A stretch of DNA of 40,236 nucleotides, taken from Entamoeba histolytica HM-1:IMSS (Eukaryota > Evosea > Mastigamoebida > Endamoebidae). Below, in pieces: positions 4,410 through 33,566 of the stretch (positions within the stretch are counted from its first letter, which is position 1; each line of letters opens with the position of its first letter). The position numbers and the translations under genes are program-made. The stretch spans positions 1 to 40,236 of the forward strand of contig NW_001915008.1 of NCBI RefSeq assembly GCF_000208925.1, written 5' to 3'. The notes beneath the pieces were generated by a model, which was given only the letters and a program-made list of their open reading frames with translations, searched no databases and was not told where the DNA came from.

Positions 4410-7400
4410 TTAATTATCGCTTGATAATGATGAAGATGAATCTTGTACAGCAGTTGTCTTCTGTATTAATTGATTAGAAGAAGGATTTTCATCACAATCA
4501 ATAACAAGAGCATATTTAATATCTAATCCCCATTTCTCAATTTCTTTTAAAACATCAATAAATGTTGGTCTATCTTCAGGGTTTTGACTCCAACAATCCT
4601 GAGTCAACTGCCAATAATTTTCAGGAATTCCATCAGGTTTAGGAAGTCTTTTTCCTTCAATAACAAATTGGGGGATTTTCCAAGGTTGATCAAATACATT
4701 TTCATCAGAATATCCTCCTTTTTCAATATAAGTTTCATATAATACAATACCATAAGCATAAACATCAATAGGATATGAATAATCAAAGTTTTGAAGACAT
4801 TCAGGTGCCATATAAGTAGGAGTACCAATTCCTTGAGTAAGTTCTTTATTTAATCTATTTCTTTCAGAAATATTTCTACAAGTACCAAAATCAGTTAATT
4901 TACCACAAACATCACTGTGTGGATTTAATGAATAAATTAACACATTTTCTCCTTTAACATCTCTATGAATGATTTGGTTTTGATGAAGGAATTGTAATGC
5001 TATTGCAAGATCATCTAATATTTTTATTTTTAATTCAAATGATAATTCATGTTTACCCCAAATCTTACTTAATGATCCATATTCTGCAAATTCTGTAACA
5101 ATAGCAATCTCTCCTTCAGTATATACTGCCCCAATAAATTCTACAACACATTTATGTCTTAATTGAGTTAACATAGAAACTTCATGACTAAATTCTTTTT
5201 CTTGTTCTTGAGTCATATTTCTTGATTTCATTTTTTTAATAGCAACTTCTCTTCCTCTATAAGTTCCTCTAAACACCATACCAAAAGCACCTTCACCAAT
5301 TGGTGGCATTTGTGGAGTTAAATCAGTATGGTCAAGTTTTAACGAAAGATCAGATTCAATAATCAAATTAATTTTTGCTGTTTCTTTATTTTGATCATCA
5401 ACATCCATAGCAATAATACCAATTTCATCACTAACAGAAGCAGTACATAACATTTTAATTTTAAATTTTAATTCCATTGCTTCACCAGATTTTAAAGTAT
5501 ATCTTGGAGGTTCTACTTTTAAATCATACCTATGAGATGGAGTAGCAAGGACTTCAAAGAAATAAGCTTTTTTTGTAGTATTAGCAATTTGAATATTTTG
5601 TTCATATTCTTTATCTACAAGTGCTTTATTTTTATCTAACCCAAAGTTTAATTCCCAGGTTTGAGTTTTTAAAGGGAAGTTTTTATTATCTGCTGTTAAT
5701 AAACTTAACTCTAAATCAGAAGTAACTTTAAATGGTTTAATACTTTTAGTAGTATTTTTTTTATGAATACTTTTCCACGAGACAATAACAATAATAATAA
5801 TAAGTATTGTTACAATAATAATAATTATTACTACTACTACTGGAATTATTATATTTAAATTATTCTTTGAACACATTCCATTGTCTTTAGGACTATATCC
5901 TTTTTCACATTTTTTACATCCATTTTTATCACATGATAAACAATGTTCTATAGTTTGACATTCTATACAATATTTTGTACTATTTGGATAATGTTGTTCA
6001 TCATCACATTCTTTACATCCAGGTGCTTCTAAATCAGAATACCAAATACAATTTTTACAATTAAGTTCAATTGGACATTCTGTACAATTAATTTGACTAG
6101 TATTTACTGCATAATATCCTTTATTACAATTTCCAGCACATCCTGTCATTGTTGGTGAACATGTCATATTAATTTCACTAAAAGGTGAACAAAATGATCC
6201 ATTATTTCCTCTATAATAATATGGTGCACAATTTGTACATGAATTTGATGATTCACATGAACCACAACTTTCATCACAATGAATACATTGCATATCTAAT
6301 CCAATAAAATAATTTTGTTTACATTCAATACAATATCCCATTTGTGCTTTTTCACATGTATCATCCATATCTTCACATGTAAATGTTCCATCTGCAGTTG
6401 GTTTTAACATTTTATTTGCAACACATGCTGTGCAATGATCTGCTTCTTTATCACATAATGTACAATTCTCTGAACATGAATGACAAGTTTTTTGTCCTTC
6501 AGGAATATATAATCCAGTATGAACTAAATCATTTTTACATTCTTTACATCCTGATTGATCATATTTACTACAATTATCTGCAACTTTTTTACAATTATCT
6601 CCATCAAAATAATATCCAATTTTACATGATAAACATGTTTTTGAATCTGTAATACATGTACTACATGATGTATCACATGACTCACACATTAAATCTGAAT
6701 TAAGAAAATATCCATCAACACATCTTTGACATCCATATATTTCACTTCCTACTTCACAATTAATTGATTTTAGTGTAATACATTGTCCATTGTATGGTAT
6801 AAATCCTGTTAAACATTTAAAACATTTTTCTTGATTCTTTTCATCAATAAAACATTCATCACAATTTTCTATAGTACATGCTACACATCCACCTCCATTT
6901 AAACGATATTTTTTATCACATTTCTCACAATGATCATCTTTTATACTACTACTATCACAATGATCAATTTCAAGACAATTATATGTTCCATTTAAATAAT
7001 GTTTATCAGTACATTGGAAACAATTATCTGATTCTGTACATAATGAACAAAATGATGAACATTTTGTACATGCTTTTTGTTCTACTGAAAAATAATATCC
7101 CGACTTACATTTACCACATTCATGTGCATCATCTCCAGTACATTGTGTACATCTTTTTTGGTCTATTGATAAGAAATACGTTGCATTACATTTATAACAA
7201 ACTAAATCATTACATAACTCACAATTTTCAGTACATCTAATACAACTATTATCTTTTAAATAATATCCATCATAACACTTTACACAATATCCATCAACTA
7301 TTGTTTCACAATTTGAATCTGTTGTTTGAGAGACACAAACTATTTTAGGAACTCCTTCTGTTGAAGGTAAAACACTTAATGTAAATCCACTTTTACACTC

Positions 7401-7499
7401 AATACATCTTCCTTCACTAAATTCTTTAGCACAATTTTCAACACTACCATAACAAATAGAAAGAAAAATAATCTCAATGATTAATAATTTCCCTTTCAT
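4410..7499 (-). CDS. transmembrane receptor kinase (Entamoeba TMK family)
   Basis: The protein has 1029 residues. An N-terminal signal peptide (about 1-18) is followed by about 530 residues of CxxC/CxC repeats of the furin-like Cys-rich type, an isoleucine/valine-rich membrane helix at about 548-575, a juxtamembrane segment, and a protein kinase domain at about 730-993. The kinase motifs are complete: GEGAFG, the VAIK lysine, HRDVKGEN (about 846), DFG (about 870), and GTPTYMAPE. It should therefore be an active Ser/Thr or dual-specificity kinase, of the tyrosine-kinase-like group by motif style. The architecture is that of the large TMK family of Entamoeba, thought to act in surface sensing and phagocytosis. 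The ligand is unknown. The start fits the signal peptide and lies 36 nt after a GAACTTAAA box. Long antisense frames inside the Cys repeats are shadows. Confidence 0.93.
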   Translation of the reverse strand: MKGKLLIIEIIFLSICYGSVENCAKEFSEGRCIECKSGFTLSVLPSTEGVPKIVCVSQTTDSNCETIVDGYCVKCYDGYYLKDNSCIRCTENCELCNDLVCYKCNATYFLSIDQKRCTQCTGDDAHECGKCKSGYYFSVEQKACTKCSSFCSLCTESDNCFQCTDKHYLNGTYNCLEIDHCDSSSIKDDHCEKCDKKYRLNGGGCVACTIENCDECFIDEKNQEKCFKCLTGFIPYNGQCITLKSINCEVGSEIYGCQRCVDGYFLNSDLMCESCDTSCSTCITDSKTCLSCKIGYYFDGDNCKKVADNCSKYDQSGCKECKNDLVHTGLYIPEGQKTCHSCSENCTLCDKEADHCTACVANKMLKPTADGTFTCEDMDDTCEKAQMGYCIECKQNYFIGLDMQCIHCDESCGSCESSNSCTNCAPYYYRGNNGSFCSPFSEINMTCSPTMTGCAGNCNKGYYAVNTSQINCTECPIELNCKNCIWYSDLEAPGCKECDDEQHYPNSTKYCIECQTIEHCLSCDKNGCKKCEKGYSPKDNGMCSKNNLNIIIPVVVVIIIIIVTILIIIIVIVSWKSIHKKNTTKSIKPFKVTSDLELSLLTADNKNFPLKTQTWELNFGLDKNKALVDKEYEQNIQIANTTKKAYFFEVLATPSHRYDLKVEPPRYTLKSGEAMELKFKIKMLCTASVSDEIGIIAMDVDDQNKETAKINLIIESDLSLKLDHTDLTPQMPPIGEGAFGMVFRGTYRGREVAIKKMKSRNMTQEQEKEFSHEVSMLTQLRHKCVVEFIGAVYTEGEIAIVTEFAEYGSLSKIWGKHELSFELKIKILDDLAIALQFLHQNQIIHRDVKGENVLIYSLNPHSDVCGKLTDFGTCRNISERNRLNKELTQGIGTPTYMAPECLQNFDYSYPIDVYAYGIVLYETYIEKGGYSDENVFDQPWKIPQFVIEGKRLPKPDGIPENYWQLTQDCWSQNPEDRPTFIDVLKEIEKWGLDIKYALVIDCDENPSSNQLIQKTTAVQDSSSSLSSDN

Positions 7500-7749: not shown

Positions 7750-9639
7750 TCATTCATACCATAACATTGTGCGATATAATTTTAATGAACTTAATGTTTC
7801 ATCTAATTTATCGTTAATTCCTTTGGGATTTGTTCTTTGTTTTAATACACCACAATAAACTTTTTTTCCTTCTTGTTCAATTGTCCATTTAATATGACCA
7901 ATTAATTCCCTAACTGTAGTGTTTTCATTTCCATTAAACTGTATTGTTGAGTATTTTGTTTTAATTTTTACAATATATCCTGCTTTACTAAGTTCTTTTG
8001 GATATTCTTTACTTTCAATGCCATCATCGTTAGTCTCTTTTGGCTGTTCTGTTTCAACTAATTTATGTCCTTTTGGTTGTTCTTTTTCTTCTTGAAATTC
8101 AAATCCACAATTTGCTTCTTTTGTCTTTGACACTTTAAGTAATAGTTGTATTAACTTTTCTTGAATTTCTAAACTACTGTCTTTAGGTTGTATGTCTAAA
8201 GTAGAGATATTTGATTTTCTATTTTTATTGGATATATCTTGATATAGTCTAGGACTTCCATGTTTTTCATAGCTTTTATACTCTCCTGAAGGTATTTTTT
8301 TTGGTTTCAATACATTAAGTTTGTTATCTTGAATTGTTTCATTGGTACTTTGATGATTTATTTCTTTTTCATTATTATTATCTTTATTTATTTTGATTTG
8401 TTCTTGATGTAATTCATTTGAACCTTGCAAAAGTTCATGACTAAGTTCTTTTGTTTCTTTGTTATCTTCTTTAGATAAACTAGGTGTATTATCTTTAACT
8501 TGTTGTTTAGCTTTACAGTTCAAATTTTCTTTCTTTTCAATTAATTCTTTCTTTTCAATACATCCTTTTCTTTCATTTTCGTTTTGATTTTCTTTCTTCA
8601 TTTGGTCATTATCTTCTTTTATACTCTTCTTTAATTCTATACAATCCTTAGAAAGTGCGTTTAACAAATCAATTTTAAAATTATTCTTTTCTTTTGAATA
8701 TATTTCATTTACTGTTATTTCTTCCTTACTTTCATTTAACTTCATATTTGGAGGTGGTAAATCAAATGAATCACAAAAATCAAATAAGTTATACAATGAG
8801 TAGAAGTTTGATTCTTCTAATGAATTTAATTGGTACAAAAATCCTTTATAGATTGAGTTATAGAATTTGATAAAATAAATGTATTGATTTTCAATTGAAA
8901 CATTAGAAAAAAGTGCTAAACTATTGAACGAAATACTTTTTTTCTTTGTGAGAAGATAGTCTTGACTCTTTCCATGACAATAATTGTTGCATTTTGTTAA
9001 TTGTGCCAACTCAAAAAATGCGTCTGATAATCCTTTAAAAACATACATCACAACACATAAATCAAGTCCACATTGTTCACATATATTACAAAGATTTGAT
9101 AGTAAACTTTTTCTAAAATCAATACCAACTAATCTGTTTTGAAATAAAAAGACCATATCATAGATTTGATTACCTATTTGATGTTTGTATCCACATGGAC
9201 ATTGTCCTTCAATTTTAATTATTGTAGAAGCAATCTGAGGATCATTATTTTCAAAACGAAAGGATTGAGTTGGGGGTTCAAAAACTCTTGATTCACATGA
9301 AGATATAAAGCTTTGAAAGATTTTTTTTATAATAACATGATCTGTAAGAAATCCAACAAAATTATTTTGTTCAGTGAAAAGATATGATAAAATGAATGGA
9401 CAAGTCTTTTCAGGAAACCATTTCTTTTGTTCTTTTATGAAATTAATTGAAAAGTCATAAGATGTTCCAGTTGTACAAAAAATTTCCCATTTTGTTGTAT
9501 TTAATGAAAGTAGAATTAATTCATTACCATTTTTATTAATTGTATACATTTCAGCAGGTCCATTTCTATCATCATGTATTGATCTTCCACATGGACATCT
9601 TACAGACACTAACTTTCTTAATGGAATATAATCTTCCAT
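7750..9639 (-). CDS. unrecognised protein, two CPCG modules and possible ubiquitin-like C-terminus
   Basis: The protein has 629 residues and I do not recognise it. Two related N-terminal modules each open with the motif CPCG: one near residue 15, followed by a GPAEMYTINKNGNELILL stretch, and one near residue 148, followed by an IYDMVFLFQNRLVGID stretch. They look like an internal duplication of a domain with a possible metal-binding Cys pair. Residues about 310-540 are low-complexity, rich in K, E, N and Q. The last 80 residues alternate strands and a helix with TVRELIGHIK, then D.LDETLSSLKLYRTMLWY, which resembles a ubiquitin-like or UBX fold. The gene is divergent from the RhoGAP gene across a 190-bp gap. 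Function is unknown; the Ubl reading is a guess from pattern. Confidence 0.75.
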   Translation of the reverse strand: MEDYIPLRKLVSVRCPCGRSIHDDRNGPAEMYTINKNGNELILLSLNTTKWEIFCTTGTSYDFSINFIKEQKKWFPEKTCPFILSYLFTEQNNFVGFLTDHVIIKKIFQSFISSCESRVFEPPTQSFRFENNDPQIASTIIKIEGQCPCGYKHQIGNQIYDMVFLFQNRLVGIDFRKSLLSNLCNICEQCGLDLCVVMYVFKGLSDAFFELAQLTKCNNYCHGKSQDYLLTKKKSISFNSLALFSNVSIENQYIYFIKFYNSIYKGFLYQLNSLEESNFYSLYNLFDFCDSFDLPPPNMKLNESKEEITVNEIYSKEKNNFKIDLLNALSKDCIELKKSIKEDNDQMKKENQNENERKGCIEKKELIEKKENLNCKAKQQVKDNTPSLSKEDNKETKELSHELLQGSNELHQEQIKINKDNNNEKEINHQSTNETIQDNKLNVLKPKKIPSGEYKSYEKHGSPRLYQDISNKNRKSNISTLDIQPKDSSLEIQEKLIQLLLKVSKTKEANCGFEFQEEKEQPKGHKLVETEQPKETNDDGIESKEYPKELSKAGYIVKIKTKYSTIQFNGNENTTVRELIGHIKWTIEQEGKKVYCGVLKQRTNPKGINDKLDETLSSLKLYRTMLWYE

Positions 9640-12309: not shown

Positions 12310-15300
12310 TTAAGTATTAATAGAAATAGATTCTATTCTTCCTGGCTCAGGGGAGACTAATCCCGTCCCTTCGTCTTCTTCTTCTAGTAGCTCTACGGAG
12401 TATGTTTGATTGTGATCTCCGCAGTATTCCATGACATCCATCATGTTTTTAATCACAAGGTTTTTTACTTCTTTTTCGATGTCAATGTCAATTTTTAATT
12501 CTTTAATTAATTTAACACTTGAGTTATTTATTAATCCATTTATTGAAATTACTACTGGAATTATTCTGACATCTTTTATTTTCTCTATTTTCATTAGCAT
12601 ATTCTTTAATTCCTTATACATATTTCTTTTTTTCCAATAGGCTCCATTAATATTGTGATATTCAACATTAGTTTTATCAAATAATAGACCAGTTTTATTC
12701 TTTTTATCTAATACGTATATGTCTGGTCTTTTGTGGTATTGTCCATCACTTTTAGGCATTATTTGTTTGTTCCATATCATTGTGATGTCTTTATATTGGA
12801 ACACTGTTTCATATGGAGGTTTTTTATATTGATTATTTCCAGTGTATTTTCTTATTAATCCCTCCCATATTATTATGCCTATATGGTCATGTTTTTCCAT
12901 TTGTGATTTTTTATGACCAATGCAAGATAGTAGAATGTGCTCTACTGTAGCTATATTGTCTTTACAAAGTGTTGAGTATTTCAATCTTTCATTTTTCATT
13001 ATTTTTGCTTTCTTATACCCACAAAATATTGCTCCATCTTGCATTTTAGTTAATTGAAGAAATTCATTCTTTTTAATATTGATGGACTTCCATGCTTTCA
13101 CTGTAGTAGTTTTATCTACTCCTTTTGACTCGAACCATCTTCTAAAATATCCACTAATTTGATGACACTTCCATTTTTGATGTATTTATCATTAATTTTT
13201 TATTTCTACTACTACTTCTTTTTCTTTTTTCTTTTCTTTCATTTATTATTTCTTCTATTTTTGTTTCATTTATTTTATGAATTATTGTGTTTTTAATTCT
13301 ATTCCATATTCCTTTCTTATTGTACCATCTATCTAATATGTTATTTCCTATTTCACTTTCTCTGGTACAGTAGTACATTACTGTTCTAATTAATTCAATA
13401 ACATATTCGTCCCTTATATTTATTAATCCTTCACCCATTTCTTCTAGAGGGACATATAACCTATCTTTGGAGTTTCACCATTGTATTTTGCCTTTCTTAA
13501 ATATTTTCTTATCTCCAAATCAATTTTATCTAGGTCGGTAATTTTCCAATTTACAACTGATGCTGAATATCTGAAGATATTGATTACTTCATTGTTTATT
13601 CGAGTAATATATCTTCTATTACTACTTTCATCAGTGTTTATTTCTTCCATCTTCTTCATTTTTTCTTTGATGGTTTTACAATTGAAGGTGTCATCAATTT
13701 CGTCGGACTGCCATATTCCTAAGTATTTATACAAGTCCTCACCTTCAACTACGGGGATGTTTTGCATTCCATCTGGTATTTCCTTAATGTTTTTTAATAC
13801 CATTCCTGACTTTTTCTCATTCATTTCCATCCCTATTCCACTTATTATTTCCTTAATTTCATTGTGGATTATTCCCATTTCTTCACTACTTTCTGTCATT
13901 ATTCTCAAATCATCCATATATAATGTGTGATTTGCTTTTGGGAATTTCTCTTCGATGATTTGAGAAATTACATTCATCTGTATGATGAAGAGTAGATTTG
14001 ATAAGGAATCATTTGTAAAATTCCTCTATTTAATTTAATATTGCCTAGATATTCATTAAATTTATAACCGATGAATATCTTCAATCTAATCATCATACTT
14101 TCAATAATGTCAATGATGACACACTCATAATTAAAATATTTTAATGATTCAATTACCCATTCGTGGTTTACTGTGTCATATGCTTTCTTAATGTCATAAT
14201 ATGACTCCACATATTTTGGGTATTTCTCTTCTTTCTGCTGCTTCATCATATAACTATTAATTATTCCTTCTTTAGCAGCTAAAGATTGCAACTTACATCC
14301 CAGTTGATTTTTACTAATTTTCAATGATTCATTATTCATGTTAAGTCTTCTGTGAATCTTTTCTTTTAATATGGAGGTAAATACTTTCTTAATTACATTT
14401 GTACAACTGATATGATAATAATTAGTGACTTCATTCATATCAATTTGTGGATTAATAAAGTTCTTCCACTTATCATGTCTAATGGGATGTTTTGAATGAA
14501 GTTCAACCATTCATTAAAGATATTGAGAATGATTTCTCTTGATGATGACATCCTTTTCCAATAATACCCATATATAGTGTCTATTCATGGTTTTTTCCAG
14601 TTACTTATTCTCATTATACTTAAATTTAATTCATTTATTGTTATTATGACATTATCATAATTGAAATATCTTTCATTCCATGAGGTGATTTGTTTTATTT
14701 TCCAATTATCTTTATTTAATATCACCTGTGTTTCATATAACGATTTCCAATATTCTAAAGTAATATCGTTATTTGGGTATATTTCGTTTTTTGGGTCTTT
14801 CTTCCTTATTCTAATTTTCTTGTTAGAATCAAACATGATTTTATTTGTATTGATTCTGATTATTTCATCTTTATTAAATTTAATTCTTTCTTTGATCATT
14901 GTCATCATATATTTTAGGTATTTTATTCTTTCTAGTGCTTTAACTTTAATTCCTTCTTCATCATGTTCTTTTAATTTCATGATGCACTTTATTCTGTACC
15001 ATTTCCTTCCCTTGACCAAATCTTCTAGTCTATTGATTTTCTTTAGGATTTCTTTTATTTCATCAAATTTGTCTCCTATTATTTTATTTTGGAGATAGAG
15101 GTGCATAATCATTGAAATCATCTTCATATCATCTTGCAGATCATCCATTCTGCTTCCTGAACATATCAATCTATTATTAATTTCTCTTATTAATTGGTCA
15201 GCTTCTTTTCTTTGAAAGTAGTAATTAATATTGATACATTTTCTACTTTCATTTCTTTCACTTTATTGATGAGAGTTTTAAGGTATTCTTCATCAATTTC

Positions 15301-15560
15301 AGTAGAGTTATTCTTTAATATGATGTTTTTTATTATTGAATTACACTCTACTCTTCTTTCTATTATATCATTTACTTTCACTTTAATGTATTGTTTAATG
15401 CTTTTCTTTTATTTTATGTGACATTTTAATATATTTAATATATTCATTTTCATTATTTACATTGATTTTTATTACTTTTATTATACTTTCAATTTGTTCA
15501 TTTCTTATTTTCTTATATAATTTCTTATTCAACCAATTAATTGCAAAACAATACAACACT
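12310..15560 (-). pseudogene. LINE A ORF2, reverse transcriptase and endonuclease, frameshifted
   Basis: ORF2 is split into open pieces at 15190-15381, 14585-15169, 13974-14510, 13444-13977, 13154-13438 and 12310-13101. The RT active site reads LYMDDLRI, with the expected catalytic aspartates. An AYDTVNHEW segment lies upstream at about 14155-14195. The last piece holds the endonuclease: a zinc-type motif (LCKDNIATVEHILLSC, at about 12950) and RPDIYVLDKK...LLFD (about 12680-12740), the PD-(x)14-D nuclease core of R2/R4-like LINEs. The first Cys of the expected CCHC set is a Ser here, while the related element B keeps it. Breaks between pieces look like one- or two-base indels. It cannot make full-length protein. 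Confidence 0.88.
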
Positions 15561-15564
15561 TCAA

Positions 15565-17060
15565 TTAGAATTCTATTTGTTTGTTCTGTTGTATTTCTTG
15601 TCTGATTATCATCTCTTGTTTTTTGACAATCAGTGCTTTGCTTTTCTCTTCGATTTCCACTACTGTCTTTTTCATAGGAGTAGTTTCGTTCATCTCCATC
15701 GTTCCCGATGATGCTTTCCTCAATACTGGTTGTGTATTTATCACAAGTGTCATCGTTTTCTTCTTCTCTAGTTCCTTCTGTGAAATAAAATTTTCAATAT
15801 CATCTTGTTGTTTTGATATTATTTGTTTTTGTGCTTCATTTTCTTTTTGTGTGTTGTCTAATTCTTCTCTTGTTATTTCTGCAATTTCTTGGTTTTTAAT
15901 TGCAATTTCTTGATATTCAGAGATTTGTTTTTCTTTATCTCTTATTTCTTTCTTTAATTCTTTAGTATTTTCCTCTATCATTTCAATTTTCTTCTCTAAT
16001 GTGTTTGCATTTTGTTCTAGCGTTTTGTTTCTCTTTTTTAGCTTTTCAATTTCTTCTTTCATTTCTTCATTTTCTTTTTCAATTTTCTTTTTATTAGCTT
16101 GGATGCTTCGGATTTTCTCTTCTTTATTATTTACTTCTGTGATTTTCTTTCCTTCTATCTCATTTATTTTTCCTCGTAGTTTTAAGTTTTCTTCTTCTAA
16201 TTTTTCATTTTCTTTCTTCACTTCTTCATAATTCGTTTGAATCTTTTTAATTTGTGTTTTCATTTCTGTAATTTCTTCTTCAAATTCTTTCCTAACTATT
16301 TCTTTTGCTTTTCTCATCATTTCTTCTGAGATGGCTTGTTCTTCTTCCATTCTTTTCATACTTAATTCTTAAGTTTTTCTTTTAATTCAGTAATTTGATT
16401 TTTAAGTGCAAGTATTTCTTCTTTATCTTTTTCTTCTTCTATCTTTTCTTCTTTATTTTCTATTTCTTCTTGTACTTTCTTTATACTTTCTGTTTCATTT
16501 ATTATTCTTGCAATTTTACATCTATCATTCATTTCTTTAATTGGGTTTTTGTTTTTAATTTCTGCTTCTATAGCCTTAATGTCTTTTTCCTCCCAATCTT
16601 TTGTTTTTTCTTTAAACTCTTCTTTCGTCTTTTCAATTATCTTTTTCTTTTTAATTGAATATACTTCTTGAAGAATATCATACCATTTTTTCTTCTTACC
16701 TTCATATTTTTTAAGTATTTCTTCATATTCTCCTTCTTTCCATTCACTTGTTATTTTTTTTTATTCTTTCTTGTATCTCATTTATTGTTAGCCATTTGTA
16801 TTTGTTATTTGTATAATCTTTATTGTTATTGTATTTACCTTGTTTTTATTTGTTTTTCTTTGTGTCTTTCGTCTTCTAAACCCTTTTTCCTTGGTGTATC
16901 GTTTACCTTTATTATTATAATTGTTATGCCATTTATTGCTATTGACATTTCTTTTTTTATTGTATGACATTGAATTTCTATGTCTTGTTTGCTTTTCTTT
17001 ACAAGACTCTAAGGTTTTACACAATAGCCATGGCATTAAAATTTGTTGTATTTCCTGCAT
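15565..17060 (-). pseudogene. LINE A ORF1, basic coiled-coil protein, frameshifted
   Basis: The N-terminal piece (16788-17060) is Lys/Arg/Asn-rich. A middle frame (about 16375-16785) and the open piece 15565-16359 are Glu/Lys-rich heptads, a long coiled coil. This fits an RNA-binding, self-associating ORF1 protein of Entamoeba LINEs. The breaks lie at or near homopolymer runs (for example the T run at about 16755 on the plus strand). ORF2 follows within a few bases of the ORF1 stop. Confidence 0.8.
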
Positions 17061-22723: not shown

Positions 22724-23545
22724 ATGAAAAAAAAAATGAGTATCAATCTAAAATGGGTTTTGCATGAACTTATTGGACAAGGTAATTTTAATCCAGAAAA
22801 AAAGTATCTTGATAAGGTTATCCAGAAATCATTCCAAGGGAAGAGGTATATTATATTTAAAAAGATTAAAAACAAATTAAAAAGTAGATATTTTGATGAA
22901 GTTTTTAAAGGATTAATTCTTCTTCATTTTCTTTGTCAGAATGGAAATTGTATCATATTTACTGAATTTAAAGAAATTGTCATTCCAAAACATGATGTAA
23001 AAAATGTATTTAATATTAACCCAAATACATATCAGTTTTGGTGTGAACATTATTCCATTTTACTCAATTATTTATTTAATTTCCATCATAAATATCCTTA
23101 TTTTGATGGTTCTTTTCATTTTACAAGAAAGAGTTTATTTCTAGTACTATTAAAAGAGAAAGACATGTTTATTAATTTATGGAATGATTGTTATACTTTA
23201 TTTAATCAATGTAATCAATATGTAATTGACATAACAAAAATGATTAAATTTAATGAACAATTATGTTTTAGTATAGGTATTGTTGTGAGTGATATGGTTG
23301 GTATGTATTTAATGCTTACAGAATTACTTAATTTCATTACATCTGAAACAACATGGGAATTAAATAGAATTGAAGTAGATAAACAAAATTGCATAAAGTG
23401 TCTTTATCAAATAAAATCAACGTTATCAAACCAAAGAATGGGAAAGTATTTACCTAATAACCCTATTAGTAAATTACTTTTACATAAAACAAGAAATTCA
23501 GAAGATAATATGTTATGTAATAAAACTCATTTACAATTATTTTAA
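22724..23545 (+). CDS. possible ANTH/AP180-like helical protein
   Basis: The protein has 273 residues, is helical throughout, and has no signal peptide. Residues about 25-90 read like an ANTH domain: a Lys-rich stretch (QGKRYIIFKKIKNKLKSR), then VFKGLILLHFLCQNGN, which resembles the VFKSLI..H.L...GNE motif of AP180/CALM proteins. These bind PIP2 and clathrin during endocytosis. The following helices and the length (about 270) fit a bare ANTH module. The usual K(x)9KxKH lipid site is not exact, and there is no clathrin- or adaptor-binding tail. The identity is therefore tentative. The ATG follows an unusual pair of inverted repeats. Confidence 0.6.
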   Translation: MKKKMSINLKWVLHELIGQGNFNPEKKYLDKVIQKSFQGKRYIIFKKIKNKLKSRYFDEVFKGLILLHFLCQNGNCIIFTEFKEIVIPKHDVKNVFNINPNTYQFWCEHYSILLNYLFNFHHKYPYFDGSFHFTRKSLFLVLLKEKDMFINLWNDCYTLFNQCNQYVIDITKMIKFNEQLCFSIGIVVSDMVGMYLMLTELLNFITSETTWELNRIEVDKQNCIKCLYQIKSTLSNQRMGKYLPNNPISKLLLHKTRNSEDNMLCNKTHLQLF

Positions 23546-24219
23546 ATATGAGGAAATTTAATGTAATTTTATTATTTTAAAATTAATTAAACAATTATTA
23601 AAAAATATTTATTAACAATTTGTTTTTATAACTTCAAAAAAAAAATGACGCAACAAAGAAAAAACTAATAAACTTTCACAGTACTATAAAAATTTTGACT
23701 AATTTATAAATTACTCATTCTTTTATAAAATATTTTATTTTTTAAAGAATTTAAGAATTATTTTGTTAATTTCTTGAAGAGCATCATTTTTTTTTTATCA
23801 ATTTCTCTTCTTTAATGTTATAGATAAATAAAATATTCATAATAACTACAATAAACCTTATTATTATTATCTTGTCTTTTAATTTCATTTTTTTTGTTGA
23901 GATTATGATTAGATATAATAATCATAAACTCATTCAATATTCTTTAAGAAGACTATTATTAAGTTAAACTTTGTTTGAGTCTCACTTAGTTTTTGCAATT
24001 GATTTGAGGTAATTGTTATATATACTTATTGAATAACGTTTTATCACAAAAAAAATTTGTTTTTGTTTTAATAAATTGTTTTTCTTGATGTATAAATAAA
24101 ACAATAAAAAAAAAGTGATAAAAATAGAAATTTTAATAAGTTTAATAAATTAAACTAAAAAGAATTAAAAAATAAAAAGTTAAAAAAGAAAGAACCCTAA
24201 AATAGGGTTATAAAGATGG
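23546..24219. other. intergenic, nothing firm
   Basis: AT-rich DNA after the ANTH-like gene. At 24194-24209 ACCCTAAAATAGGGT can form a short hairpin about 40-55 nt before the U1 candidate and could be part of its promoter. No tRNA or coding exon is seen. Confidence 0.5.
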
Positions 24220-24228
24220 TATAAAAAG
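24220..24228 (+). promoter_or_regulatory. TATA box of the U1 candidate
   Basis: TATAAAAAG starts 28 nt upstream of the proposed RNA 5' end at 24248, the normal place for a TATA box at a small-RNA or mRNA gene. A short inverted repeat (24194-24209) lies further upstream. Confidence 0.5.
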
Positions 24229-24247
24229 CAAACGAAAAAATGGTAAA

Positions 24248-24392
24248 ATCAACAAACTTATCCTTGATTGTTGTGCCTCAAGAAACACAATAATCTTTGC
24301 ACAATGCGTCATGTGCACTGCGGCGTGTTGATGTCAAATGGGTTAACCTGGGAGTAATTTTTGTATTGCCTTTTAAGAGGCACCTCTTAACA
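24248..24392 (+). ncRNA. candidate U1 spliceosomal RNA
   Basis: Five features occur in U1 order. (1) ACAAAC (24252-24257) lies near the proposed 5' end and is the exact complement of GTTTGT, the 5' splice site of all six introns found in this window. (2) Stem-loop I: 24266-24275 pairs with 24286-24295 over 10 bp; its loop CCTCAAGAAA resembles the U1-70K loop. (3) Stem-loop II: 24302-24310 pairs with 24322-24330 over 9 bp including G-U pairs; its loop ATGTGCACTGC contains TGCACT, as in the U1A-binding loop. (4) Sm site AATTTTTG (24356-24363). (5) A terminal hairpin, TTAAGAG/CTCTTAA with loop GCAC (24373-24390). A TATA box lies at -28. Stem III is tiny, if present. The ends are estimates. A 66-codon frame across it is not considered coding. 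Confidence 0.65.
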
Positions 24393-24930
24393 ACTTTTAA
24401 TTTAATTTACCTTTTCTTTACTAAAACATTAGTTTACAAAGAATTTAATTTTGTCATAATTTTATTTCATTGTTTTGATAATGTTAAGAACATTTAAAAA
24501 TATTAAATTAATAAAATATAATTAAATTTAAGAAACAATTATAAAGAAAAAAGTGATCAAACAGATGATAAATTAAACCAAATTACATTAAAATTAATAT
24601 AAAAATAAACTACTAGGTGTGGATATGACTTAGTATAATATTATCAATACATAAACCATCAGAAATTAGTTTTGTTATAAATAATGAAAGTGTTTTTGTT
24701 CAAATAATCAGTCATTTCTTGAAACTCTTTTTCTTTACTCTACCCACACTTTTTATTTATTGTGTAATACAATCCACTAATAATTATCATTCTGTAATAT
24801 TCATATAATGTTCATTCAAATATTTGAGTTTGTTTTTGTTTGTATTGTTTCATCTTTTGTATTTTGTTTTTTCCAAATAATTCATAATAATAAATTATAA
24901 AAAAAGAAAAATAAAGAAAAAACATAAAAA
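24393..24930. other. intergenic, nothing recognised
   Basis: AT-rich DNA between the U1 candidate and the 3' end of the TFIIH gene. AGATGAT near 24563 looks like a snoRNA C box, but no matching D box follows. No gene is called. Confidence 0.5.
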
Positions 24931-26043
24931 TTATTTTTTTTTAAATTGTGTTATTGCCTTTTTAAGTTCTTTAAGTATTTGTTCCCACAAAGGACGATGA
25001 GCAATCGGTTCTGAAGAAATTTGTTTTTCTACGAAATTAAAACAATCACAGATAACTTTTTCATAACGGGTTTGGAGTGTGGCAGAAGTTAACTCTTTGT
25101 AAAAACACTTTAAACAAAAAGAACACAACTGATAAAATAATAAAACTTTGACAAGCTCTTGTCCTTTATGTATTGAATGTTGGGTAGAAGGTTGTTTGAT
25201 AATTTCACCTTGTTGAGTGGTATTCCAAATTTTTAAAGAATCAATTTTATTGATTTCTATTCCATCAAATAATTTTGGATCAATTCCCCATTGTGTATAG
25301 TCAACATTTTGGACATTAGAAAGTCGTTTACTTTCTACAAACCCATAGTCTACTTCTTGCTCATCTTTAACATTTTTTTCCATCTGCCTAACAACAACTT
25401 CGCTGTGCCAATTAATTTGGTCAATAAATCGTTTAACAGAAACATTTCTTTCAACGTCAATTTGTCTTCTACTATTCATTTCTATCCCCCAAGTTATACC
25501 TCTAGTACCAAAACCTTCCCAGCCATCATTTTTTAATTCAATAGAAGCAATGTCTTTTTGATAAAAATCTCCCCTGATTTTTTTCTTTCTTTCTTTTCTT
25601 TCACGTTCATCAGTTCGGAAAGTGTCTTGAAATATATCAATACTATTCTTTTCTACTTCTCCAAAATATCTTGACTTAAAGAATTTCTCAAAAAAATCTT
25701 CTTCTTTCATTCTGTTGTCAAACACTTCTCTTTTGTACCTTTCTTCAATCATTGGATATTCCATAAATATTTGTTTTCTAAATGGCTCCCATTCTTTACT
25801 TTCAATAAATTTTTTAAATTCTTCTCTTCTGGGAGGTTCTCCTTCTCTAAAATATTCACTTACACAATCAGTTATTAATGCTGAAGAAAATCCAGGTTTT
25901 ATGGTGTTTAATTTTGTTTCTTTTTCTTCTTCTATTTCACTATAAAATATTTCGTCATCAGGGATTAATAGTGTTGCAACGAGTTCATTATAAAGAAAGA
26001 CTTTTCTTGGTGTGTCTAGTCTAACATCTTTTGATTTAGACAT
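24931..26043 (-). CDS. TFIIH core subunit p62/TFB1-like
   Basis: The protein is 370 residues from the start chosen here. Around residues 112-130, EEDFFEKFFKSRYFGE matches the BSD-domain core found in p62/GTF2H1 (FW..FF.S.YF). A preceding helical pair (ITDCVSEYF, FKKFI..KEWEPFRKQIF) could be the first BSD unit. The C-terminus is helical, as in the p62 part that contacts XPD. The subunit acts in transcription start and nucleotide excision repair. The frame extends 15 codons further to 26088, but those codons coincide with GAACTTTAAAAAG, the promoter box seen elsewhere 35-40 nt before starts, so the second ATG (26043) is preferred. It is shorter than human p62 (about 548) and no N-terminal PH domain is visible. 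Confidence 0.75.
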   Translation of the reverse strand: MSKSKDVRLDTPRKVFLYNELVATLLIPDDEIFYSEIEEEKETKLNTIKPGFSSALITDCVSEYFREGEPPRREEFKKFIESKEWEPFRKQIFMEYPMIEERYKREVFDNRMKEEDFFEKFFKSRYFGEVEKNSIDIFQDTFRTDERERKERKKKIRGDFYQKDIASIELKNDGWEGFGTRGITWGIEMNSRRQIDVERNVSVKRFIDQINWHSEVVVRQMEKNVKDEQEVDYGFVESKRLSNVQNVDYTQWGIDPKLFDGIEINKIDSLKIWNTTQQGEIIKQPSTQHSIHKGQELVKVLLFYQLCSFCLKCFYKELTSATLQTRYEKVICDCFNFVEKQISSEPIAHRPLWEQILKELKKAITQFKKK

Positions 26044-26940: not shown

Positions 26941-29900
26941 ATGTTAATTTATTTCATTTTATTTCAATTAGTCAATTCAGACTGTTGGTACTCACAAGAT
27001 AATGAAATTATTTATGATCCAAATATTTCAGGAATGACATGTAGTAATCGTGGATATGGATGGAAATTAATTTGGGATGGAACAATTGATTGGATTATAT
27101 TTACAGGAGAGTGTTGTGAAAATAATGAAAATTATTATTCTATTAGTTCATTAGCAGAAAATAGAAATCCAAAAGGAATAACATTTGATGAATCAGCATC
27201 AATTTCATTAATAAAACTTTTACCACCATTTATAGATTCCAAATGGATTATTGATGGAAGAAATATAAATAATGAATGTGAAATTTATATAGGAAATACA
27301 AGAGAATATGTTGTAAAAGATAAAGAAACAATAATTATAATTGGAACTAAAACATTAAAAATATATTTTGAAAATCAAGAAATTAATATTCTTCAATTTA
27401 AAGAAAAAGAACGACCGTATATGTTTATTTCTGGAAATTCAACTATATTAAGAGTCCAAGAAGATTATCAAATTAATGAATGTCATTATCTTTTTAATGC
27501 TAAAAATGTTATTGTTGAACAATCTAACGATTTTGTTATTCAAGGAATTTGTTCTTTTATGTCACAAAAACGTTATATTAAATGTCCTAAATCTAAATTT
27601 ATTGAAAATGACTGTAGTTGTTTTATTAAATCAACTGTCAGTGAAGTTTCATTTACTGAATTTAATATGAATTATCCTGACTGTTTTGTATCAAGTGATT
27701 TCTTACCTTTAACAATTAAATCTCATCAAACAAATATTAAATTTGATCAACATAATCACTGGTTAAAATTAATTATTGAACCAAGAACACAACCACTCTT
27801 AATTCAAAGTAATGAACCAATTATTATTAAAGAAGATTTTATTCTTCCATCAATTACTTTTATTTTACAAACGAAATTAATAATTTCTTCTTCTTTAATA
27901 ATTCAAAACAATGAGAATGAATTTTGTTATTTTAAAGAAATTTATGCTTCTTCATTAAAAGTAAATGAATTAAATAAAAACAAAATAATATTTAATTGTG
28001 GTTCATATTATATATCTAATAGTTTTAATTTACGAATTGGTTGTAAGAATGGTTTATATAATAGAATAGTATTAAATGAAAGTCAAATAGAATGTAATTG
28101 TTATTATAATAATAATACATTTGATCAAAATGATTGTAATTATGTTTCTCAAATGGAATCAAATCAATTAAAGTTATTTGTTTTGAATAAAAATTCTTAT
28201 CATCCTAAAACTGAAGTATATTGGAATGAAATAATAATTCGAAATGGAAAAATTGGTGGATTTATTAAAGCAAATAAATGTATTTTAGATAATACAATAA
28301 TTAATTCAGGAATTCTTATGTGTAATGAAATGGTTATTACTAATTCAATTATTGTTAATGATATTGCAAAAGTAGAAATAAATCATTTAATAGTAAAAGG
28401 TGTTTCTCGTTGGAGAGGAAATTGTCATTTTATTAAAATAACAGTAAATGGAAAATTTGATTATGATGGAAACTTTGTTTATGCAGACATTGTTGAAATG
28501 AGTGAAGACACTTCAATAACTTTTATTAATGGTGGTTATATAAATAATTTAACTTCAAATGGATATTGTGCTATTACAAGTGCATTTGATTTAATTATTA
28601 ATGAATGTAATAGTATTTATATGATAGATATAATAGCACGTTCATTAACAATAAAAAAAGGAATGATCAATTTTAATATATTATCAGTAACTCAACCATT
28701 AATAATTAATGAACAAGTTATTTCTATTGCAATTAATTCAATAATACAAAATATTGATAATCTCTTTCTTCTTCTTGATATTCAAAGAACTTCCAAACCT
28801 TTAATTATTCAAAAAATTCCAATTATTAGTCCTCGTTCACATCCAGTAGCTTTTCTTGAAACTAAGAAAAGACCAAGTATTGTAATTTCATTAGAAAATC
28901 AATTTAAATATATGTGTGATAGTCAAGTTATTATTATTGGAAATATAACAAAATCACCATGTTCTTCACTTCATCTTGATAATAAAATTTGTAATTATGT
29001 TGGTGGATCAATATATTTAAATTCAAATGGAAATATTGATTATTCATGTCCTTGTAATAATGATAAAAATGTAAATAAAACATTAATGATTAATTCAAAA
29101 GAATATTATATGAAACAAAATGAAGAATATAATCAAATTTATAATCAATATAATAGTATTTTATATTCTCAAAATAAAGAACTTGTTATTATATTAGAAA
29201 AAGATATTCAAATAAATGGAAATAATAATTCTATTTTATTTAAATTAATGAATGACAATAATAATAATAAAACAGTTTTAAATATTCATATTAAAGGAAC
29301 TGCTATTTTATTTTGTGAATTGCATTTTGGTTATGATATAAATATTCAATCTAAATCTATTAGTTTATCTCAAAATGGTTTATGTAAAGTTGTGGTAATT
29401 GAAAATAATAAAATATATTGTGTAGTTTGTCGGTATTTAATGAAAAATAATGAATGTTTAAGTGGTAAAGTTGAAGAATGTATGCATTATACAAAGAATG
29501 GAAAATGTTTTCAATGTAATGAAGGATATTATATTGATAAAGAAAAGAATAAATGTAATAAATGTTCTGAACATTGTCAATATTGTAATTCGAGTGAATG
29601 TATTTTATGTTATAATGGTTATCAACTTCAAAACAAAAAGTGTGTATTATATAACGAACCATGTAATTATTTTAAAGGAGATATTTGTTATAAATGTCCT
29701 CTTGGATATTATAGTATAAATGGAAATTGTACTCAATGTCAAGAAGGTTGTATAATGTGTCAAAATAATAATACATGTGAAAGTTGTGACATTGGTAATG
29801 GATATTTTGGAACAAATTGTTCATATATTGATCATTCAAAAATAATTAGTTCAATAGTAATTTGTGAACATGGATATTATTTTGATGGAAATAATTGTAC

Positions 29901-32235
29901 ACAATGTGGAAATAATTGTGGAGAATGTCAAATAGATTCATATGGAATAAAAAAGTGTTTAACATGTATAAGTGATGAATATTATCTTAATGAACAAGGA
30001 GAATGCATATTTGGAAAAGATATTTGTTATATTGATAATTGGAAATGTGTTTCATGTATTAATCCAAATGAATATTTTAATGGATTAAATTGTACTTCTT
30101 GTGGAGAACATTGTATTTTATGTTCTACAATTGGAATTTGTGAAGGATGTGAAAATGGATATTATTTACATAAAGAATTAAATGAATATGATCAAATTAT
30201 TTTTCAATGTAAACCAAATCCTATTAGTAATTGTATTGAATATAATAAAGGAAAATGTATATCATGTAATAACGGGACATATTCTAACAATTATCAATGT
30301 CTTCCATGTCATGTAACATGTTTAAATTGTGTATTAAATTCAAAAACATGTTTAAGTTGTATTTCAGGTTTTATGATTCAAGATAATACATGTATTAGTG
30401 CTAAACAAGAAATTGAATCATGTGAAATATTTGCATCAGAAATAAAAGGAGAATGTGCAAAATGTAAAGATTTTTATTATTTAAATCAAAGTATTTGTGA
30501 ACGATGTTCAAATAATTGTAAAATTTGTAATAATTTAACTTCATGTATTGAATGTGGCATAAATTATTTTTTAAATGAAACAGGAGAATGTGAATCAATT
30601 TTTCATTTAACGAATTGTAAAGAATTTAGAAATAAAGGATGTATTTATTGTGATAATGATACTTATCTTGATGGAATACGATGTGTTTATTGTAATGATA
30701 TTCAAACGTATTGTAATAAATGTCATTGGGAAAGTGGAATATGTATAGGATGTAAAGAAGAATATATATTATATCAAGGGAAATGTATTCATTATTCATT
30801 TATTAGTCATTGTAAAATGGCATCTAATTCTATATGTAGTAAATGTTCATTTTGGTATAAACCAACAATAACAGGAATAGAATGTGAAATTAATATAAAA
30901 TGGTGGATCATAGTTATTATAATAATTATGATATTAATAGGAATGATAATAATAATAATAATTCTTTATATAATTCTTATAAATATTTGTTTAAAAAGAA
31001 ATCAAGAATATCAACCTTTATTAATTTATCAAAAAGTTTCTCAAACTCATTTAAATTGGATAAATTTACATTTAAAAGGAATTGTTGTAAATAAGAAAAT
31101 ATTAAAATTTACAGGAAATATTAATGAATTAGTTGAAATTGATCAACCAATATCAGATACTTTTTATATTGGAAATACAAGTAAAGAAACAATATATATA
31201 ACATTTACATATTTAAATAAAAATAAAGAAAAATATTGTATTTTAATTAAACCAGAAATACTAGAATTAAAACAAGATGATTGTTATTGTATTACTGTTA
31301 CTGTTATACCATATTGTACAACAATTATTAATGAACAATTAAAAATTGTTAAAACAAATAATAAATTAGGAATTGATTCAATTGATTCAATTAATATTAA
31401 ACTTAAAACACAATTATCAACAAAACTTGATTATGATGAATTAATAATAGAAAAAAAAATTGGAGAAGGAACATTTGGAATAGTTTATAAAGGAATATTT
31501 AGAAATAATATTGTTGCAATTAAAAATCTTAAAAACATTCAAATTATAGAAGGAGTTGTAGAAGAATTTAAAAGAGAAATATTTTTATTAGAAAACTTTA
31601 GAAGTGATTATATTGTTTATTTTTATGGATCTGTTTTATCTACAAATAAATTTTGTATTGTAACTGAATTTGCACAATATGGTTCTTTACAAAATCTTAT
31701 TAATACTTTAACCTTAAATGAAATATCTTTAAAATTAAGAATTAAACTTTTAATTGATGCTTCAAAAGGAATTAAATATCTTCATTCAAATGGAATATTA
31801 CATAGAGATATTAAACCTGATAATCTTCTTATATTTTCTTTAGATCAAGACATTTTTGTTAATGCAAAATTATCAGATTTTGGTTCTTCTAGAAGTATTA
31901 ATTTACTGGTAACTAATTTGACTTTTACTAGTGGAATTGGTACTCCTGTTTATATGGCTCCTGAATTGTTAAAAAGAAAAAAATATAAAATGTCGGCTGA
32001 TATTTATTCATTTGCTATTTTAATGTATGAATGTATTAATTGGTGTTATGCTTATCCAATTTCAATGAAAACTTGGAATATAGCTCAAGATGTTTGCTCT
32101 GGAAAAAGACCTCCAAAATTAGATTCAATGAATTCTTCATTTTATGAATTATTAACACAAATGTGGTGTGATATTCCAAATGAACGTTTAACAATAGATG
32201 AAGTAGTTAGACAATTAGAATATTTACGTTATTAA
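26941..32235 (+). CDS. very large transmembrane receptor kinase (Entamoeba TMK family)
   Basis: The protein has 1764 residues. A short signal peptide (about 1-13) leads into about 800 residues rich in I, N and V with repeated strand-like units (NVIVEQSNDFVI, KIGGFIKANKCILDNTIIN), suggestive of a beta-helix or adhesin-like region. Then come about 480 residues of CxxC repeats (about 830-1310), a membrane helix at about 1318-1350, and a kinase domain from about 1500. The kinase motifs are all present: GEGTFG, VAIKNLK, HRDIKPDN (about 1620), SDFGSSR (about 1646) and GTPVYMAPE. It should be a surface receptor with an active intracellular kinase. It belongs to the same broad family as the 4410-7499 gene but is 735 residues longer, mainly through the extra N-terminal half. 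No intron is needed. Confidence 0.92.
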   Translation: MLIYFILFQLVNSDCWYSQDNEIIYDPNISGMTCSNRGYGWKLIWDGTIDWIIFTGECCENNENYYSISSLAENRNPKGITFDESASISLIKLLPPFIDSKWIIDGRNINNECEIYIGNTREYVVKDKETIIIIGTKTLKIYFENQEINILQFKEKERPYMFISGNSTILRVQEDYQINECHYLFNAKNVIVEQSNDFVIQGICSFMSQKRYIKCPKSKFIENDCSCFIKSTVSEVSFTEFNMNYPDCFVSSDFLPLTIKSHQTNIKFDQHNHWLKLIIEPRTQPLLIQSNEPIIIKEDFILPSITFILQTKLIISSSLIIQNNENEFCYFKEIYASSLKVNELNKNKIIFNCGSYYISNSFNLRIGCKNGLYNRIVLNESQIECNCYYNNNTFDQNDCNYVSQMESNQLKLFVLNKNSYHPKTEVYWNEIIIRNGKIGGFIKANKCILDNTIINSGILMCNEMVITNSIIVNDIAKVEINHLIVKGVSRWRGNCHFIKITVNGKFDYDGNFVYADIVEMSEDTSITFINGGYINNLTSNGYCAITSAFDLIINECNSIYMIDIIARSLTIKKGMINFNILSVTQPLIINEQVISIAINSIIQNIDNLFLLLDIQRTSKPLIIQKIPIISPRSHPVAFLETKKRPSIVISLENQFKYMCDSQVIIIGNITKSPCSSLHLDNKICNYVGGSIYLNSNGNIDYSCPCNNDKNVNKTLMINSKEYYMKQNEEYNQIYNQYNSILYSQNKELVIILEKDIQINGNNNSILFKLMNDNNNNKTVLNIHIKGTAILFCELHFGYDINIQSKSISLSQNGLCKVVVIENNKIYCVVCRYLMKNNECLSGKVEECMHYTKNGKCFQCNEGYYIDKEKNKCNKCSEHCQYCNSSECILCYNGYQLQNKKCVLYNEPCNYFKGDICYKCPLGYYSINGNCTQCQEGCIMCQNNNTCESCDIGNGYFGTNCSYIDHSKIISSIVICEHGYYFDGNNCTQCGNNCGECQIDSYGIKKCLTCISDEYYLNEQGECIFGKDICYIDNWKCVSCINPNEYFNGLNCTSCGEHCILCSTIGICEGCENGYYLHKELNEYDQIIFQCKPNPISNCIEYNKGKCISCNNGTYSNNYQCLPCHVTCLNCVLNSKTCLSCISGFMIQDNTCISAKQEIESCEIFASEIKGECAKCKDFYYLNQSICERCSNNCKICNNLTSCIECGINYFLNETGECESIFHLTNCKEFRNKGCIYCDNDTYLDGIRCVYCNDIQTYCNKCHWESGICIGCKEEYILYQGKCIHYSFISHCKMASNSICSKCSFWYKPTITGIECEINIKWWIIVIIIIMILIGMIIIIIILYIILINICLKRNQEYQPLLIYQKVSQTHLNWINLHLKGIVVNKKILKFTGNINELVEIDQPISDTFYIGNTSKETIYITFTYLNKNKEKYCILIKPEILELKQDDCYCITVTVIPYCTTIINEQLKIVKTNNKLGIDSIDSINIKLKTQLSTKLDYDELIIEKKIGEGTFGIVYKGIFRNNIVAIKNLKNIQIIEGVVEEFKREIFLLENFRSDYIVYFYGSVLSTNKFCIVTEFAQYGSLQNLINTLTLNEISLKLRIKLLIDASKGIKYLHSNGILHRDIKPDNLLIFSLDQDIFVNAKLSDFGSSRSINLLVTNLTFTSGIGTPVYMAPELLKRKKYKMSADIYSFAILMYECINWCYAYPISMKTWNIAQDVCSGKRPPKLDSMNSSFYELLTQMWCDIPNERLTIDEVVRQLEYLRY

Positions 32236-32879: not shown

Positions 32880-33566
32880 AGTGAAGAAATGGGAATAATC
32901 CACAATGAAATTAAAGAAATAATAAGTGGAATAGGGATGGAAATGAATGAGAAAAAGTCAGGAATGGTATTAAAAAACATTAAGGAAATACCAAATGGAA
33001 TGCAAAACATCCCCGTAGTTGAAGGTGAGGACTTGTATAAATACTTAGGAATATGGCATTCCGACGAAATTGATGACACCTTCAATTGTAAAATCATCAA
33101 AGAAAAAATGAAGAAGATGGAAGAAATAAACACTGATGAAAGTAGTAATAGAAGATATATTACTCGAATAAACAATGAAGTAATCAATATCTTCAGATAT
33201 TCAGCATCAGTTGTAAATTGGAAAGTCACTTAGATAAAATTGATTTGGAGATAAGAAAATATTTAAGAAAGGCAAAATACAATGGTGAAACTCCAAAGAT
33301 CGGTTGTATGTCATTATAGAAGAAATGTGTGAAGGATTAATAAATATAAGGGACGAATATGTTATTGAATTAATTAGAACAGTGATGTATTACTGTACAA
33401 GAGAATGTGAAATAGGAAATAACATATTAGATAGATGGTACAGTAAGAAGGGAATATGGAATAGAATTAAAAACATTAATTCATAAAATAAATGAAACAA
33501 AAATAGAAGAAATAATAAATGAAAGAAAAGAAAAAAGAAAAAGAAGTAGTAATAGAAATAAAAAAC
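32880..33566 (+). mobile_element. LINE A fragment, part of ORF2, truncated at both ends
   Basis: This 687-bp stretch is nearly identical to element A 13195-13887 read on the opposite strand: the RT thumb and the region after it. Over the best-preserved 120 codons I count three amino-acid differences. It starts just after the YMDD site and stops inside ORF2, so neither the promoter end nor the 3' end of the LINE is present. An early stop lies at about 33231. It sits 38 bp after the stop codon of the SelM-like gene, so it may have changed that gene's 3' end. Confidence 0.88.

Follow-up and report, generated by a model that had tools for sequence, protein, structure and literature searches.

A candidate U1 snRNA gene of Entamoeba histolytica whose 5' end fits the GUUUGU splice site

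Layout and predicted fold of the locus

The window analyzed here, a stretch of 40,236 nucleotides of the Entamoeba histolytica genome, carries at positions 24248–24392 of the + strand a segment that we describe as the candidate body of a U1 snRNA gene. Its extent rests on an Rfam match, on the predicted fold and on similarity to a second copy in the same genome. Both ends are provisional: the start is placed at 24248, the A of an AUC that lies two bases 5' of the Rfam match, and the 3' end is set where similarity to the second copy ceases (24393). The segment sits between the 3' ends of two convergent open reading frames, an ANTH/ENTH-domain gene on the left (+ strand, end at 23545) and a 385-amino-acid frame without a Pfam match on the right (− strand, end at 24931). 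As these neighbors converge, the segment is the leader or promoter of neither. Its GC content of 0.40 is the maximum among 14,253 windows of 145 nt outside the larger open reading frames (mean 0.20), the two windows that rank higher both overlapping the segment itself.

Upstream, a TATA-like box, TATAAAAAG (24220–24228, + strand), begins 28 nt 5' of position 24248 and may act as the promoter element. Farther out lies a perfect inverted repeat, AACCCTA-AAA-TAGGGTT (24193–24209, + strand), a weaker feature; AACCCTA occurs in the window at chance frequency (3 observed, 2.41 expected).

Other parts of the window hold two large proteins with C-terminal kinase domains (4410–7499, − strand, and 26941–32235, + strand), whose cysteine-rich front parts and transmembrane stretch were recognized by eye. 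Broken open reading frames at 12310–16359 (− strand) and 32889–33233 (+ strand) look retroelement-like by eye, one of them with a YMDD stretch, and the latter repeats a piece of the former almost exactly. The window also encodes a Rho-GAP protein with 95% identity to a five-member E. nuttalli cluster, 84% to E. dispar and 44% to E. invadens, as would be expected of E. histolytica or a close relative.

Unconstrained minimum-free-energy (MFE) folding of 24248–24392 yields a U1 cloverleaf, whose parts all lie on the + strand. ACAAAC (24252–24257), the presumed 5' splice-site recognition sequence, is followed by the predicted helix H, in which 24261–24264 pair with 24350–24353 over 4 bp. Stem-loop I (24266–24295) has 10 bp (24266–24275 with 24286–24295) and, like the Rfam consensus, a 10-nt loop, CCUCAAGAAA; its UCAAGAA also agrees with that consensus and would, by homology, be bound by U1-70K. 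Stem-loop II (24296–24338) consists of a 15-bp helix, interrupted by two one-base bulges, and the 11-nt loop AUGUGCACUGC, which holds UGCACU at 24314–24319; this loop is of the (AU)UGCAC type with one inserted base and is by homology a putative U1A site. Of the arms expected at a U1 four-way junction, stem-loop III (24340–24348) is weak, a minimal element of just 2 bp in the MFE structure that is absent from the centroid. The Sm site UAAUUUUUG (24355–24363), recognized by Rfam and from its sequence, is mostly free in the predicted fold and precedes the 3' stem-loop IV (24367–24382; 6 bp, four-base loop), which is the U1 arrangement. In the MFE structure five bases of the 5' end also base-pair to the Sm region; we infer that this pairing would be opened in the particle. 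The folding energy as such is ordinary (z −1.27), with 22 of 200 shuffled sequences folding equally well. An earlier note on this DNA, made from the letters alone, had listed ACAAAC, stems I and II, TGCACT in the second loop, an Sm site, a 3' hairpin and a box at −28, and every one of these elements is present where it had placed them. The 9 bp it gave for stem II are the unbroken inner run of a predicted helix that extends to 15 bp.

Agreement with the U1 family and chance expectation

The earlier note had proposed a covariance search with the Rfam U1 model. In a cmscan with permissive filters of the region 23900–24700 (801 bp) against 4227 families, the sole match was U1 (RF00003; 19.6 bits, E 0.012), over the full model (positions 1–166). 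The segment is thus called U1, yet below the family's gathering cut-off of 69.5, which is an annotation threshold and not a property of the RNA; at gathering thresholds the scan returned no match. The score gives the 5' end no credit, as this departs from the consensus though it fits the local splice site. A sub-threshold score of this kind can explain why a U1 gene was overlooked. When the whole window was scanned permissively, the U1 match had an E-value of 0.61 and was one of five matches, all under their own cut-offs. Among these a SAM-II riboswitch match (8873–8929, + strand; 28.2 bits against a cut-off of 44) had a lower E-value than U1, 0.2; it lies antisense to an open reading frame and is probably due to chance. 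Arithmetic scaled from the scan E-values gives about 0.06 expected matches to the U1 model at such a score over 16.95 Mb.

Comparison with RF00003 shows the same order and form of 5' end, helix H, stem-loops I and II (UCAAGAA, UGCACU), Sm site and 3' stem-loop. The candidate differs from the family in its 5' end (ACAAACUUA instead of ACUUACCUG), in the additional base of loop II, in the near absence of stem-loop III, and in its length of about 145 nt against a model of 166 positions, besides scoring under the cut-off.

The likelihood of such an assembly was gauged in the genome (16,953,004 bases, 392 contigs) and in random sequence. TCAAGAA, TGCACT and ATTTTTG, in this order and with set gaps, occur once in the 16.95-Mb genome, at the candidate, and not at all in the reversed control, whereas ACAAACNTATCC by itself is common (13 occurrences versus 9 for its reversed control). 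The chance that ACAAAC falls within 8 given sites is about 0.002. A descriptor drawn up with knowledge of the candidate was run on one strand of 40 Mb of random sequence that had the dinucleotide make-up of the window; it gave 385 stem-I hits, none of them with stem II and one with ACAAAC upstream. The window itself gives a single stem-I hit on each strand: the one on the + strand is the candidate, with every element, and the one on the − strand is without any other element.

Twenty other loci of the genome (60,630 bases) gave no U1 match at E≤10, with U2, U4, U5 and U6 over their cut-offs. A genome search with RF00003, in which 41 of 93 candidates were scored, gave no match at the locus, and sub-threshold matches at E≤10 also arose in 9 of 14 prokaryote controls; with so few candidates scored and such noisy controls, this search shows neither absence nor presence. 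Outside the genome, ACAAACYTATCCTTGATT turned up in 6 viral and 26 prokaryotic stretches. None of the 32 aligns over 27 bases by BLAST, and they were rejected as relatives, the lack of a longer alignment pointing to chance. Two longer patterns had no match in viral contigs.

Splice-site complementarity, companion snRNAs and a diverged second copy

The 5' end of the candidate differs from the canonical ACUUAC at two positions, precisely those required to pair with GUUUGU. The claim of the earlier note that this end fits GTTTGT holds, ACAAAC being complementary to GUUUGU: the predicted duplex with AAGUUUGUUU has −8.4 kcal/mol for the candidate and −1.3 kcal/mol for the canonical U1 end, while with AAGUAAGUAU the values are −4.5 and −7.5 kcal/mol, respectively. 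The 5' splice-site consensus of E. histolytica is given as GUUUGUU (PMC6085484), and PMC6046404 calls the site GUUUGUUU strong and conserved. Within the window, a kinase gene (20898–19518, − strand) has an intron GUUUGUUUU...AUAUCAAUAG, whose removal by eye brings the catalytic HRDIKPEN into frame. Introns of the U1-70K gene can likewise be read as starting with GUUUGU; they were not used as evidence because the script allowed only GTTTGT donors. In a published minigene, conversion of GUUUGUUU to GUAAGAA nearly abolished intron circles, from which the authors inferred impaired activation of the 5' splice site (PMC6085484). This outcome is consistent with lost pairing to ACAAAC and is no proof of it. 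Because both changed positions of the 5' end suit the site, selection has probably favored the pairing. Assignment to U11 snRNA failed: the 5' end is not complementary to RTATCCTTT, and no family but U1 appeared at E≤10. For E. histolytica, neither RNAs nor introns of the U12 type are listed in Table 2 of PMC2846911.

The other four spliceosomal snRNAs are encoded elsewhere in the genome, all over their Rfam cut-offs: two genes for U2 (contig C384) and one each for U4 (C283), U5 (C111) and U6 (C231). Weak look-alikes of U4 and U6 at four loci (L006, L007, L008 and L011) were set aside as under the family cut-offs. The two U2 genes lie about 21 kb apart in opposite orientation and share 58 identical upstream bases and short downstream repeats. 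The candidate resembles this set in several respects. The starts of U2, U4 and U5 can, like its own, all be read as AUC, which stands one base before the Rfam match in U2 and two bases before it in the candidate. With U2 it also shares a TATA-like box about 28 nt upstream (TATAAAAGG in the U2 genes, at a distance similar to that of TATAAAAAG) and raised GC, its 0.40 lying near the 0.41 of U2 and the 0.41 of U6. AAAACCCTA, half of the inverted repeat upstream of the candidate, stands 5' of the U2 TATA boxes as well, and the occurrence of AACCCTA in both upstream regions is suggestive. The candidate differs from U2, U4, U5 and U6 in that these score over their Rfam cut-offs and were previously described (PMC6018208), and from U4 and U6 in that CTCATAATTT, found upstream of both, is absent from U1. 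A comparison of the U1, U2, U4, U5 and U6 promoters revealed nothing common beyond short words. Separately, ACTCATAATTT stands about 59–65 nt before the Rfam match in U4 and U6, and U5 has CCCATAATTTT similarly placed; these are perhaps a shared snRNA promoter element.

The genome also encodes proteins specific to the U1 particle. Both U1-70K (PF12220, E 2.1e-12) and U1C (PF06220, E 1.9e-8) are present, and among the PDB structures the sequences closest to them are those of U1-70K (a U1A/U1-70K fusion construct ranking first) and U1C. U1A is reported for E. histolytica, where the tagged protein was used for CLIP (PMC6018208). As to the LSm fold, we noted 14 stretches in the genome, 8 near full length and 6 partial (one with a stop); a 2026 review names just two LSm proteins and raises the question of where the other five are (PMC13292270).

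DNA search of the genome gave one relative of the candidate, at C129:13657–13803, which is 75–76% identical over 24251–24393; with flanks added to the query, the match spans 24230–24393 at 74%. Upstream of the presumed start, similarity thus covers at most 18 nt, and downstream it ends together with the gene. The second copy lies near open reading frames resembling (by eye) a Rab GTPase and a ribosomal protein. ACAAAC, loop I, the Sm site and the 3' hairpin are all preserved in it. The copies differ at 35 of 142 positions, and no difference falls within the 21 bases of ACAAAC, UCAAGAA and AAUUUUUG (P 0.0015); with the five loop II bases included, one of which differs, P is 0.003. The stems fare unevenly. 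Stem I of the second copy has lost 5 of its 10 pairs, and a bulged alternative is predicted at +4.9 kcal/mol. Stem IV keeps 6 of 6 pairs, one of them changed on both sides and one on one side, and a 6-bp stem III can form; of the 36 pairs that can be counted across the entire structure, 27 persist. The three two-sided changes between the copies are no excess over shuffled controls (66 of 500), so covariation is not used here as proof of structure. Rfam does not call the second copy U1. It may represent a variant U1 gene or, alternatively, a decaying copy. Dissimilar U1 genes within one genome are known from the human variant U1 snRNAs (vU1, PMC5159530); the second copy differs from these in its divergence of about 25% from the candidate and in the breakage of half of the stem-I pairs. 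The earlier note had named another locus clearly encoding U1 as an argument against its reading. DNA searches, which are blind to any U1 unlike both copies, gave just this diverged and worse-structured relative, the RF00003 genome search being too loose and having missed the candidate itself.

If the candidate is called U1a and the C129 copy U1b, their 5' ends read ACAAACU and ACAAACC, and U1b has a changed U1A site. Predicted duplexes with AA/GUUUGUU have −8.4 kcal/mol for U1a and −6.1 kcal/mol for U1b, and those with AG/GUUUGUU −8.1 and −10.7 kcal/mol, respectively. One might model from this two U1 RNAs that share the labor, U1a serving exons that end in A and U1b those that end in G; in both, two positions of the recognition end would have changed in step with introns throughout the genome. 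We offer this as a speculative and rather unlikely proposal.

Identity of the RNA and its bearing on splicing in Entamoeba

We conclude that 24248–24392 is, with high probability, the gene for the major U1 snRNA of E. histolytica, which would find introns through pairing of ACAAAC(U) with GUUUGU. On sequence and modeling evidence this is by far the best reading: U1 is the sole Rfam family for the region, the cloverleaf arises unaided, the 5' end is complementary to GUUUGU, and the genome has genes for U1-70K and U1C and, at separate loci, for the other four snRNAs. The same evidence bears out the U1 snRNA interpretation put forward in the earlier note. The gene is probably a divergent, nearly complete U1 gene, with stem III minimal, that was missed because it scores below automatic thresholds. 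A TATA promoter of its own, situated between the two convergent genes, would drive transcription. The RNA, presumably capped, would adopt the U1 cloverleaf; its UAAUUUUUG would carry the Sm ring, loop I would bind U1-70K, loop II U1A and the 5' end U1C, and introns would be recognized by base pairing of ACAAAC(U) with GUUUGU. The two departures from ACUUAC would be the counterpart of a shift from GUAAGU to GUUUGU at the splice site. Speaking against U1 are the low Rfam score, the miss in the RF00003 genome search, the z of −1.27, the near absence of stem III, the additional base of loop II, the predicted pairing of the 5' end to the Sm region, and the broken stem I and ordinary covariation of a second copy that Rfam does not call U1.

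The modest score and the roughly 0.06 matches expected per genome for the U1 model leave some room for an Sm-class RNA of another kind, or for motifs brought together by chance in AT-rich DNA. We hold this to be extremely improbable, as stems I and II never occurred together in the 40 Mb of random sequence, the motif order is unique in the genome, Rfam gives U1 alone for the region, and the same motifs are conserved in the second copy. Somewhat less remote, though still very improbable, is a silent relic of a U1 gene that has ceased to be expressed or required, recognition of the 5' splice site having passed to U1 proteins or U6. This would accord with the published view (PMC13292270, PMC6018208) and with a second copy that appears partly decayed. 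A relic, however, would hardly retain fully paired stems I and IV, the Sm site and loop I, or have a 5' end whose two changed positions both suit GUUUGU, and the genes for U1C and U1-70K remain.

The remaining alternative refines the U1 reading rather than replacing it. An expressed U1 may share the choice of 5' splice sites with proteins or U6, the pairing of ACAAAC being minor. U1C recognizes 5' splice sites without base pairing, according to the title of Du and Rosbash 2002 (cited in PMC3488318), and the strength and conservation ascribed to GUUUGUUU (PMC6046404) would suit such a division. We consider it unlikely, since a U1 end fitted at both changed positions suggests that the pairing itself has been selected. 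A U1 RNA that finds introns by pairing is the reading that we prefer.

The supposed absence of this RNA can be traced in the literature. A 2026 review states that amoebas were concluded, for lack of homology, to have no U1 snRNA, its place being taken by U1 proteins (PMC13292270); PMC6018208 and PMC6085484 treat it as absent, PMC6046404 as possibly lacking while also speaking of absence, and PMC8876499 states that no U1 snRNA was identified. The statement in the earlier note that U1 was the missing snRNA is therefore correct. All five papers (2018–2026) cite one screen, Davila Lopez 2008. Among the matches listed by full-text searches of openly available papers, no title or start of an abstract reports an Entamoeba U1 snRNA. 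The accessible parts of PMC4383343 (human U1 structure), PMC4053983 (E. invadens genome), PMC8874941, PMC6796981, PMC9247205 and PMC2483917 hold nothing on it.

Since the 2008 screen, E. histolytica has been regarded as splicing in the absence of U1 snRNA. That supposed absence underlies models in which the role of this RNA falls to U1C, U1-70K, TIA-1 or U6 (PMC13292270, PMC6018208). The candidate offers a concrete sequence that is open to immediate probing. If the gene is expressed, the exception vanishes and the U1-less models need revision. A natural compensatory experiment would then be at hand, in which the end of U1 and the 5' splice site of the whole genome altered in concert at two positions.
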